From Bacillota bacterium (GTDB taxonomy: Bacteria; Bacillota; Sulfobacillia; RBS10-35; Bu92), in assembly GCA_014896375.1 (NCBI GenBank), contig JADBKN010000051.1, forward strand, positions 62,001 through 126,000: a stretch of DNA of 64,000 nucleotides, read 5' to 3'. Shown piece after piece: positions 1-19,695 of the stretch. The notes under the pieces were generated by a model. It was not told where the DNA came from, searched no databases, and worked only from the letters and a program-made list of their open reading frames with translations. Numbering within the stretch: the first letter of the stretch is position 1; the number at the start of each line of letters is the position of its first letter. The translations under genes and the position numbers were made by a program.

Positions 1-136
1 GCAGTTGCGATGGCATCCGCTGCATCCTGTATGCGCGGCGGCGGTAGGGAAGCGGGCGGGCATGTCGAAGCAATCGTTTGCATCCACACGGTGCATGCAC
101 ACAGTGCACCCACACATGCGGAGGGGGAGGAGCCTC

Positions 137-748
137 ATGGCGCGCATCAGCTACGTGGACCCGGACCGCATCGAGGATCCGGAGATCCGCGAGTTCATCG
201 AGGAAGCCCGGCGCGTGGGCACGCCGCGCCCTGAGATCCAGGCGATCCGCGCCCACCAGCCGGACGTCATCCGGACGTTCGTCTACACGTGGAAGCGGCT
301 CTTCAAGGGGGGCATCGTGGAGCACGAGTTGAAGGAGCTCATCCGCGTCCGCGTCTCCTCGAGCCTCGCCTGCTCCTACTGAGCGGAGCAGCGGTCTGTT
401 CGGTCCGAACAGCAAGTCGTCGCTGAAGACAAACTGTCCCAGTTGTCGAATTACGAGGAGTCGGACGCGTTCACGGAGCGGGAGAAGGTCGCGCTGCGCT
501 ACGCCGACGCGATCACCTGGGATCCGGACAGCGCCGACGACAAGATGTGGGAGGACCTCCACCGCCACTTCACGGAACCGGAACTCGTGGAGCTGGGGGC
601 GTTCATCGGGTTCATCGCGGGAGGTCAGCGCTGGATCAAGACCCTCGGAGTGAAGCACGGGGAGTACCTGGCGGACACCGCGGTAGGACTGAGCCCGAAG
701 GTGGCGCAGCAACTGAAGGGCGATGAGCCGCCGGAGGCTTCCCGGTAG
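137..748 (+). CDS. AhpD-like / carboxymuconolactone decarboxylase family selenoprotein (C-x-x-U), read through UGA
   Basis: A 203-residue frame opens at ATG 137 behind GGGGGAGGAG and meets TGA at 380-382. The frame stays open past this TGA to TAG at 746-748, and both halves read as one carboxymuconolactone decarboxylase/AhpD-like protein. The first half ends SSLACSY, so the TGA is residue 82 in C79-S-Y-U82, the place of the second Cys of the AhpD C-x-x-C redox motif. After it come AEQRS and then FTEREKVALRYADAITWD, as in this all-helical family. A perfect 7-bp hairpin lies 13 nt beyond the TGA. AhpD-type proteins reduce peroxiredoxins or other partners through the two chalcogen residues; the partner here is unknown. 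selD in this window also carries an in-frame UGA. A standard caller would give two pieces, ending at 382 and starting at 443. Alternative: a pseudogene with a nonsense mutation, unlikely given the hairpin and the exact motif position. Confidence 0.85.
396..412 (+). promoter_or_regulatory. Bacterial SECIS-like hairpin of the AhpD-like selenoprotein
   Basis: CTGTTCG (396-402) pairs perfectly with CGAACAG (406-412) around a GTC loop. The loop starts 20 nt after the in-frame TGA and begins with G. This fits the known bacterial SECIS design: a hairpin inside the coding region, apical loop about 16-37 nt after UGA, with a G in the first two loop positions, bound by SelB. Confidence 0.75.
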
Positions 749-823: not shown

Positions 824-1306
824 ATGGAACTCTCTGGCCAGATCTTCATTCCCCTTTCCAAGGAGCGTGTGTGGCAGGCACTGAACGACCCCGCCGTCCT
901 GGAGAAGGCCACCCCCGGTTGCCGCGAGCTGCGGCCGGCCGGTGCGGACCGCTATCAGGCCGTGGTGGAGCTGGGCATCGCCGCGGTCAAGGGGCGGTAC
1001 GAGGGGACGCTCGAAATCGCGGAGAGGCAACCGCCGGACCGCTATCGCCTGCGACTCGCGGGGAGCGGCGGGCCGGGCTTCGTCGAGGCGGAGCTCGAAG
1101 TGGCGCTCGAAGAGGGAGAGGGCGGCACCACCGTGCGGTACACCGGCCAGGCGCAGGTGGGCGGCCCCATTGCGGCGGTCGGGCAGCGCGTGCTGGGCGG
1201 CGTCGCCAAGCTCATCATGGGGGACTTCTTCAAGGCGCTCGCCCGGGAGGCCGCGGCCGCGGCCTCGACCGCACCGCAGTCGCAGCCGCAGCCGCCGAAG
1301 TCGTAG
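824..1306 (+). CDS. CoxG-like SRPBCC family protein
   Basis: A 160-residue protein starting at ATG 824 behind AGGAGGCGG. It begins MELSGQIFIPLSKERVWQAL and continues with DPAVLEKATPGCREL, the signature of the CO dehydrogenase subunit G (CoxG) branch of the START/SRPBCC fold. The body is a single helix-grip domain, ending in a short Ala/Pro/Gln-rich tail. CoxG proteins are linked to membrane recruitment or maturation of molybdenum CO dehydrogenases, but many members stand alone, as here: no coxMSL genes are near. It follows the selenoprotein gene on the same strand with a 75-bp gap, so co-expression is possible. The ligand cannot be told from sequence. Confidence 0.8.
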   Translation: MELSGQIFIPLSKERVWQALNDPAVLEKATPGCRELRPAGADRYQAVVELGIAAVKGRYEGTLEIAERQPPDRYRLRLAGSGGPGFVEAELEVALEEGEGGTTVRYTGQAQVGGPIAAVGQRVLGGVAKLIMGDFFKALAREAAAAASTAPQSQPQPPKS

Positions 1307-1433: not shown

Positions 1434-2552
1434 TCACACAATCGCGTCGCCGGCCGCCTCCGCCCGCGGCTCACGCGCGCCGGGGCCTTCGCCGGGCCAG
1501 CCCGCCCCTTCGCCCAGGGAGCCGGCGGCCGGGGACCTCATCTCTAGGCGGGGTCCGTCGTCCGGGGCGGGCAGGATCTCCGCCTGCTCCGCGTCCCTAT
1601 AGATCCGGGGGGCGCGGCGGTGGATGGCCAGCTGGAAGACGTCGGGGCGGTTGTAGTGCCCGGCGAAGTCGTGGCGCAGCTTCATCTTCACGCACAGGGA
1701 GAGGTCGATGTCGGCGTAGAGGATCGCTTCCTCGGCGCCGAGCGGCCCGGCCACCACCGACGTGTCGGGCGCCACGATGACGGAGCCGCCGCTGTTGCGC
1801 GGATCACGTAGGAAGGCCTCGTCCTTGGGTGAGACGCGCATCATGGCGATCATGCGCTCGTCGATGACGCCGCAGGCGCTGATCACGTAGGCCTTCGACA
1901 TCTGCGCGAAGGCGCGCGAGTCCACGAGCACGCGGTCCGGCAGGGGGTTGCTGATCGTGGGGATGTGGTTCGGCCAGCTGGCCACGTGGATGCGCGTGCC
2001 TTCGGCCGTTAAGGCGAAGACGGCAAGGGGATTCGAGTTCTCGCCGCAGATGAGGGCGCTCATGGGGCCGAAGGGCGTCTCGAACGTGCCGAAGGTGTCG
2101 CCGTAGCCGCCCATGTGCACGAGGCGCTCGCCCACCGTGGGCATGAGCTTCTGGTGCTTGCCCAGGTGGCGCCCGTCCGGGCCGATGTAGAGCTGGCTGT
2201 TGAACATCGTGCCCGTGGACCGGGGCAGCTTCTCGCACACGCCGATGACCACGTAGGCTCCCGCGTCTCTCGCCGCCTCGCAGAGCGCCTCCACCTCCGG
2301 GCCCGGCACGACGACACTGTTCTTGAAGAGTTCGACGCTGAGCTCCGTGGCGATGGGTCCCGTGGCCGGGTGGAAGTGGAACCAGATCGGGTGCGCGGGG
2401 ATGAAGCCCTCAGGGAAGGCGATCACCTGGGCGCCGTGGCGGCCGGCTTCACGGATGAGTCGGCAGGCCTTTTCCACGGTCGCCTCGCGGTCGAGGAAGA
2501 CGGGTGCGGCCTGCACGGCCGCGACGCGCAGGACGGGGTATTCGTCACCCAT
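1434..2552 (-). CDS. Nitrilase / carbon-nitrogen hydrolase superfamily protein
   Basis: A 372-residue enzyme with the complete nitrilase catalytic triad: E48 (AFPEGFIP), K135 (GKHQKLMPT) and C169 (LICGENSNP). The motif around the Cys and the overall length match branch 1 nitrilases, which hydrolyse nitriles to carboxylic acids and ammonia, rather than amidases or carbamoylases. The domain covers residues 8-300. The last 60 residues are Gly/Ala/Pro-rich and probably disordered, as often seen in the C-terminal tails of helical nitrilase oligomers. The ATG at 2552 follows GGGAGG about 11 nt upstream. The gene stands alone; substrate preference (aliphatic, aryl or cyanide) cannot be assigned. Its promoter side shares an AAACGATTG motif with the region before the selenoprotein. 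Confidence 0.88.
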   Translation of the reverse strand: MGDEYPVLRVAAVQAAPVFLDREATVEKACRLIREAGRHGAQVIAFPEGFIPAHPIWFHFHPATGPIATELSVELFKNSVVVPGPEVEALCEAARDAGAYVVIGVCEKLPRSTGTMFNSQLYIGPDGRHLGKHQKLMPTVGERLVHMGGYGDTFGTFETPFGPMSALICGENSNPLAVFALTAEGTRIHVASWPNHIPTISNPLPDRVLVDSRAFAQMSKAYVISACGVIDERMIAMMRVSPKDEAFLRDPRNSGGSVIVAPDTSVVAGPLGAEEAILYADIDLSLCVKMKLRHDFAGHYNRPDVFQLAIHRRAPRIYRDAEQAEILPAPDDGPRLEMRSPAAGSLGEGAGWPGEGPGAREPRAEAAGDAIV

Positions 2553-2645
2553 GGCGGCTCCGACCTCCCAGTAAGGTGTGGGAGGGGTGTTCGCGCCAAA
2601 ACAATCGTTTTCCTTCTAGGGTTTTAGGTTCGGGGCGCCACGGCC

Positions 2646-18648: not shown

Positions 18649-19695
18649 ATGGCGGACGAGCTGCGTCTCACGCAGATGACGGCCAAGGCCGGCTGAGGGT
18701 GCAAGCTGGGTCCGGGGGACCTGCAAGAGATCCTCGCCGGCATCCGGCTGCCGCAGGGCGACCCGAACATGCTCCTCGGCCTCGCCGCGCCGGACGACGC
18801 CGGCGTCTACCGGCTGGCGGATGACCTGGCCATCGTGCAGACGGTCGACTTCTTCACGCCGGTCGTCGACGACCCGTACGCCTTCGGCCAGATCGCCGCG
18901 GCGAACTCGCTTTCGGACGTCTACGCCATGGGCGGCCGGCCGCTCACGGCCCTCAACCTCCTTGCCGTGCCGGCCGGAAGGCTGCCGGCGGAGTTCGTCG
19001 GCCGCATCCTCCAGGGCGGCCTGGACAAGATCGGCGAGGCCGGAGCGGTGGTGATCGGCGGCCACTCGATCGACGACCCGGAACCGAAGGTCGGTTATGC
19101 GGTGACGGGCGTGGCCCATCCGAACCGCCTGCTCACGAAGGCGGCGGCGCGGCCCGGCGACGTGCTCGTCCTGACGAAGCCGATCGGCGTGGGTGTCCTC
19201 ACCACGGCGATCAAGCGGACCGCTGTGCCAGCGGCCGCGGTGGAACGCGTCACCGCCGTCATGGCGGAGCTGAACCGCGTGGGTGAGCGGCTGCCGGACG
19301 TGGGCGTGCGCGCGGCGACGGACGTGACGGGCTTCGGACTGCTCGGCCACGCGGCCGAGATGGCGCGGGAGAGCGGCGTGGGGCTCGTGATCCGCGCGGG
19401 CGCCGTGCCGGTGCTGGAGGAGGCGTGGGAGTACGCGCGGCAGGGCCTCTTCCCCGGCGGCAGCCGCAAGAACGCGCAGTTCGTCGCGCCCGTGGTGGAG
19501 TTCGACGAGGACCTGGGCGACGTCGAACGCATGCTGCTCTGCGATGCCGTCACCTCAGGCGGCCTGCTCATCGCCGTGCCGCGGGCGCAGTTCGATGCGG
19601 CGCTGGCGCTTCTTGAGGAGTTCCGCACGCCGGCGCGCGCCGTCATCGGCGAGGTCACGTCCGGCCCGGCGGGGCGCATCCGCGTGGAGCGATAG
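18649..19695 (+). CDS. selD: Selenide, water dikinase (selenophosphate synthetase), selenocysteine-containing
   Basis: A 348-residue enzyme that makes selenophosphate from selenide and ATP, the selenium donor for selenocysteine tRNA. The frame starts at ATG 18649 behind GGGAGGTG and has an in-frame TGA at 18694-18696. Read as Sec it gives TAKAGUGCKLGPGDL, with Sec16 exactly where SelD has its catalytic Sec or Cys. Later blocks include APDDAGVYRL, NSLSDVYAMGGRPLTALNL and GGHSIDDPEPKVGYAVTG. A hairpin follows the TGA at SECIS distance. Automatic callers would start at the internal ATG 18769 and lose the active site. It is monocistronic, ending at a strong hairpin. selA, selB and selC must lie elsewhere. 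Confidence 0.95.
18709..18721 (+). promoter_or_regulatory. SECIS-like hairpin of selD
   Basis: GGTCC (18709-18713) pairs with GGACC (18717-18721) around a GGG loop. The loop starts 17 nt after the in-frame TGA, within the 16-37 nt window for bacterial SECIS elements, and begins with G. Two more G-U pairs can extend the stem. Confidence 0.7.

Follow-up and report, generated by a model that had tools for sequence, protein, structure and literature searches.

A predicted selenocysteine-containing CMD/AhpD-like protein linked to a putative LacI-family catabolic regulon in a Bacillota-related bacterium

A gene near the start of the window, the whole 64,000-nucleotide stretch of DNA analysed here, is interrupted by an in-frame TGA. 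The locus thus raises the question of whether this codon ends a short protein or is read as selenocysteine (Sec) within a longer one, and what role the longer product might play. The explanation that best accounts for the data overall, and which is very probable, is a selenoprotein of the carboxymuconolactone decarboxylase (CMD)/AhpD type with Sec at residue 82, set in a LacI-linked catabolic context. The features of the locus are listed in Table 1.

Table 1. Features of the selenoprotein locus and of selD, in window coordinates
Feature	Position	Strand	Evidence or remark
Operator-like palindromic site GCAATCGTTTGC	70..81	.	~55 bp upstream of start codon; putative LacI-family binding site
CMD/AhpD-like selenoprotein gene (predicted)	137..748	+	203 aa with Sec82, stop TAG; Pfam CMD 42-124; same-genus homologue keeps the TGA
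In-frame TGA, predicted selenocysteine 82 (C79-S-Y-U82)	380..382	+	Aligned with Sec/Cys homologues; purifying selection on either side
Putative bacterial SECIS hairpin	396..412	+	7-bp perfect stem C396-G402/C406-G412, apical loop GUC 403-405
CoxG/SRPBCC-family gene	824..1306	+	Pfam COXG 1e-22; better start 824, after AGGAGG
Nitrilase-superfamily (CN_hydrolase) gene, putative regulon member	1434..2552	-	Pfam PF00795 1e-41; Nit6803-like, below cut-off
Operator-like site ACAATCGTTTTC	2601..2612	.	Upstream of nitrilase gene
selD, selenophosphate synthetase with its own Sec codon TGA 18694-18696	18649..19695	+	TIGR00476 378 bits; translation

Conservation of the read-through frame

The initial annotation had proposed a C-x-x-U selenoprotein from an in-frame TGA with an open frame on both sides and a Cys three residues before it, and the open reading frame and its translation confirm each of these features. 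The frame begins at ATG 137 and ends at TAG 746-748; TGA 380-382 is its single in-frame TGA and the sole interruption of an otherwise open frame. It lies three codons past a Cys codon within the CMD/AhpD-like domain, and read-through gives a product containing ...LAC(79)SYU(82)AEQRS.... The Pfam CMD domain (PF02627) spans the TGA, scoring 29.1 bits against a gathering cut-off of 23. When all six frames of the 64 kb were scanned for TGA codons lying within coding-like sequence, six candidates passed the filter, and on our reading only TGA 380-382 and the Sec codon of selD look like genuine read-throughs. Judged by codon-position GC or place at the end of an ORF, the other four seem to represent antisense frames or a genuine C-terminus.

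A species of the same genus carries a 95% identical homologue in which the TGA is retained. Comparison of the two genes over codons 1-180 reveals 46 synonymous and 3 nonsynonymous changes, distributed as 18 and 1 in codons 1-81 and 28 and 2 in codons 83-180, with a dN/dS of 0.027 in each segment. Purifying selection is therefore strong both before and after the TGA, at a dN/dS of about 0.027. Beyond residue 180 the C-terminal tail is free to vary between the two species, and their stop codons differ (TAG here, TGA in the second species). Upstream of ATG 137 nothing is conserved between them apart from the operator-like site, which supports this ATG as the start codon.

In an alignment of 41 same-class sequences, query included, the residue-82 column is occupied by Sec (TGA) in 11 cases and by Cys in the remaining 30, and never by Trp. 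This is the comparison with CMD/AhpD homologues that the initial annotation had suggested, and the 10 other Sec and 30 Cys homologues bear it out; neither of the observations it had named as contrary to selenocysteine, homologues lacking Cys or Sec at this site and further damage to the frame, was made. A 10-row alignment was too diverse for scanning the collection, and the narrower alignment used instead returned only two relatives, both with Cys and both in MAGs labelled Bacillota; these are apparently the same loci as two Cys proteins of the larger set, L054 and L024. A plasmid search gave distant matches only. Among the homologues, one (L027, G088) has Ser at the codon aligned with residue 79, a Ser-x-x-Sec arrangement in which the resolving Cys is missing. 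Two others (L037 and L042), which come from two genera, are CxxU CMD proteins of shorter length; they have an 8-bp SECIS stem in common and form their own branch.

The SECIS hairpin and the decoding of the UGA

A 7-bp hairpin at SECIS distance with a G at the first position of the loop had also been noted, and it is found at 396-412, its GUC loop beginning 20 nt past the UGA. U395 may bulge, with G394-C413 paired beneath it, an arrangement that may resemble the Escherichia coli fdhF element with its bulged U and its GGUCU loop. The hairpin forms with a probability of 0.73-0.98 in folds that begin at position 380 or later, whereas in a 55-nt minimum free energy fold that includes bases just upstream of the UGA a competing helix involving the UGA is preferred. 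A fold starting at the UGA or later can be likened to a ribosome sitting at the codon, in which case the hairpin would be favoured. The isolated stem, at -6.7 to -7.2 kcal/mol, is modest, near but not past the limit of at most -7.5 kcal/mol in the published bSECIS model (PMC13188914); with neighbouring bases the energy is -8.1 to -13.5 kcal/mol. The SECIS_1 model (RF00031) matched nowhere, controls included, and an Rfam scan of 300-520 was also empty; because the controls too were unmatched, this result does not count against a SECIS element.

For comparison among genes, a hairpin was required to have an unbroken stem of 7 bp or more, capped by a G-first triloop that starts 18-23 nt downstream of the UGA. 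Such a hairpin is present in 11 of 11 Sec genes, a count that is partly by construction since the definition was fixed after the Sec-gene hairpins had been viewed, and in 0 of 30 Cys homologues; the latter count, the control rate and covariation are the fairer tests. The control rate is 0.73% of 16,152 codons, or 0.07% if only Watson-Crick pairs are allowed. Across the eight sequences of equal spacing, all seven stem pairs are always formed and each has changed on both sides, so that 56 of 56 stem-pair cells are formed as against 36-48% in slid versions of the alignment.

The genome encodes SelA (534 bits), SelB (above cut-off), SelD and a tRNA-Sec with anticodon TCA, and selD itself has a hairpin of the G-first triloop type (7 bp, loop GGG) 17 nt past its Sec codon. 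Formate dehydrogenase, a common reason for keeping Sec, was not found apart from one weak partial match. Presence of SelA does not split Sec from Cys genomes, as most Cys-only genomes carry SelA too.

TGA is ordinarily read as stop and the genome is a draft of 65 contigs, both of which favour a true stop in a pseudogene, a sequencing error or an 81-residue protein. Such a stop would be hard to reconcile with a second species that keeps the TGA under strong purifying selection downstream, with TGA at the same column in 10 other homologues, with covarying hairpin pairs, with a Pfam domain that crosses the codon, and with a complete Sec machinery; its probability is negligible. Equally negligible is the probability that a different residue, such as Trp, is inserted through near-cognate suppression or a change of code. 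An open frame by itself cannot discriminate between this and Sec, but the homologues carry Cys and never Trp at the position, the SECIS hairpin is confined to UGA genes, tRNA-Sec, SelA and SelB are all encoded, and among coding-like frames of the 64 kb a plausible in-frame TGA is seen only in this gene and selD. On these grounds of conservation, covariation and machinery, a pseudogene, a sequencing error and read-through as a residue other than Sec were all rejected. The same three lines make it nearly certain that UGA 380-382 is read as Sec, with SelB and Sec-tRNA decoding the codon under the guidance of the hairpin at 396-412. Sec at residue 82 is very strongly supported by these sequence comparisons.

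An atypical CMD/AhpD-like subfamily

With a Pfam CMD domain across the TGA and Sec/Cys homologues, the proposed C-x-x-U selenoprotein is placed, by sequence, in the CMD/AhpD (COG2128, YciW-like) superfamily. The proposal is thus supported in both superfamily and C-x-x-U pair; an AhpD-like peroxidase is not established. The best NCBIfam matches are (seleno)protein and peroxidase-related models, all under their curated cut-offs. The best of them, NF053654 GroundWater_YciW, aligns near full-length at 87.3 bits (1e-24), yet so far under its equivalog cut-off of 310 that the query is not that protein; TIGR01926 ('peroxidase-related') reaches 47.2 bits against 81.8.

The redox pair C79/U82 and a Glu 12 residues ahead of the first Cys (E67) are present, but the proton-relay His expected at +4 from the second Cys is absent, with R86 in its place. 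This column has His in 34 of 41 rows; Arg also occurs in the three closest homologues, and it is common to the same-genus protein and the Cys proteins L024 and L054. In the tree, these two Cys proteins are the sister group of the query (100/97), within a clade rich in Sec members. Since Arg is shared by Sec and Cys members, the subfamily is atypical whichever of the two is used, and since R86 replaces the AhpD proton-relay His, peroxidase activity should not be taken for granted. In the family of Pseudomonas aeruginosa AhpD-like PA0269 (2o4d, 2ijc), Cys48, Cys51 and His55 are described as invariant (PMC3141380). PA0269 shares the predicted fold of the query, and its Glu36/Cys48/Tyr50/Cys51 correspond to E67/C79/Y81/U82, with Sec replacing Cys51 and R86 replacing His55.

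Structure prediction from three sequences gives an all-helical AhpD-like fold with a mean pLDDT of 64, which falls below 50 at residues 80-92, so that the active-site stretch is poorly predicted; AlphaFold run on the single sequence gave a poor model (pLDDT 49). PDB matches to the three-sequence prediction are AhpD-like proteins and the debrominase Bmp8 (6ohi, 6ohj), at probability 1.00. Bmp8 has the fold in common and a CxxC at the equivalent place, and in the profile alignment it resembles the query in having no His at +4; it differs in using Cys rather than Sec, in sequence (about 20% identity) and in neighbourhood.

By homology, C79 and U82 at the active-site helix would form a selenol/thiol redox pair. 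The U82 selenol would attack its substrate, a peroxide or some other oxidised or electrophilic compound; C79 would then resolve the intermediate by forming a selenenyl-sulfide, from which a thiol reductant of the cell would regenerate the pair. The selenolate may be held by R86 instead of His, and the protein may use a substrate other than that of AhpD; this substrate step is a guess.

The initial annotation mentioned AhpD-like selenoproteins from environmental data but regarded this one, in its context, as little described. CxxU selenoproteins of the AhpD-like and CMD-like kinds are in fact well described: Sargasso Sea examples date from 2005 (PMC1088965), and recent reviews list them (PMC9312934, PMC13188914), and the present gene thus adds to a known kind. 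The Sargasso Sea AhpD-like family (COG2128/YciW, TIGR01926) likewise belongs to the CMD superfamily and has CxxU, an in-frame UGA and a downstream hairpin. Unlike that family, the query falls under the TIGR01926 cut-off, has Arg for the catalytic His, and is encoded in a cluster that combines a LacI-family regulator with catabolic genes. The reviewed CMD-like CxxU selenoprotein (PF02627, PMC13188914), a family defined by domain only, shares with the query the redox motif and the Pfam domain, which scores above cut-off here. Novelty is probably limited to the subfamily, which appears to be unnamed, and to its context.

A putative LacI-family regulon and candidate functions

The adjoining CoxG gene, noted from the outset, is probably co-transcribed with the selenoprotein gene, and this gene order is kept in the same-genus species. 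The pair is, however, part of a larger LacI-family-regulator cluster that reaches upstream of the window. There, on the same contig (C47), lie the LacI-family gene (C47:54529-55533), a branched-chain-type ABC transporter, two FrsA-like hydrolases, a CrtO/phytoene-desaturase-like flavin oxidoreductase, a cyclase/arylformamidase-like gene, and alcohol and aldehyde dehydrogenases. The motif [ACG]AAACGATTGY, searched with only A, C or G allowed as first base, has six copies in 2.19 Mb of genome, all within C47:51672-64601, while reversed-pattern controls gave one match in the genome per search. Each copy is located shortly upstream of a cluster gene, the LacI-family gene included, and in the same-genus species two copies are conserved ahead of the selenoprotein gene. 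The copies are confined to a 13-kb stretch around the LacI-family gene, outlining a compact putative catabolic regulon. From these motif positions it is probable that the selenoprotein gene is controlled, together with the neighbouring catabolic cluster, by the LacI-family repressor, which would bind the operator-like sites. The Arg-type Cys relatives, L054/L084 and L024/L085, adjoin 3-hydroxyacyl-CoA dehydrogenase and BKACE genes, and L054/L084 additionally an IclR regulator gene; the neighbours of these two closest Cys relatives also suggest catabolism. Within the cluster, the selenoprotein may clear peroxides or oxidised products arising from the flavin enzyme, or alternatively may act on an intermediate of the catabolic pathway.

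A role outside the catabolic cluster, as an AhpD-type peroxide detoxifier in general stress defence, is conceivable though somewhat unlikely. Superfamily membership, the sub-threshold TIGR01926 match and the reduction of H2O2 by PA0269 (PMC3141380) are consistent with it; the Arg in place of the proton-relay His in this subfamily, an operator-like site shared with the catabolic cluster only, and the BKACE genes beside the closest Cys relatives point elsewhere. It is also possible, if quite unlikely, that the protein is a selenol-dependent reductive enzyme acting on an organic electrophile in the manner of Bmp8. That debrominase is the best PDB profile match (1e-23), has the top query-normalised TM-score among the matches listed (0.66) and also has no His in the profile-alignment column of R86, and the genes around the query encode catabolic enzymes; the low identity and a neighbourhood in which no dehalogenation gene was recognised weigh against the comparison. 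A further tentative suggestion, itself rather unlikely, is that a distinct CMD subfamily, with Arg for the proton-relay His and interchange of Sec and Cys, provides a selenium-dependent step in LacI-controlled catabolism, with an organic substrate and not peroxide.

With this locus, a little-studied Bacillota-related lineage gains a well-supported selenoprotein, whose gene standard annotation would split at the TGA into an 81-residue fragment and a second, separate ORF. The Sec genes examined in this lineage have in common a simple SECIS form that covaries, with a stem of at least 7 bp and a G-first triloop. What is new is the operator-like motif that would place the selenoprotein gene in a putative catabolic regulon. 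By tying a CxxU protein to a specific putative regulon, it may offer a testable route to the role of CMD selenoproteins.
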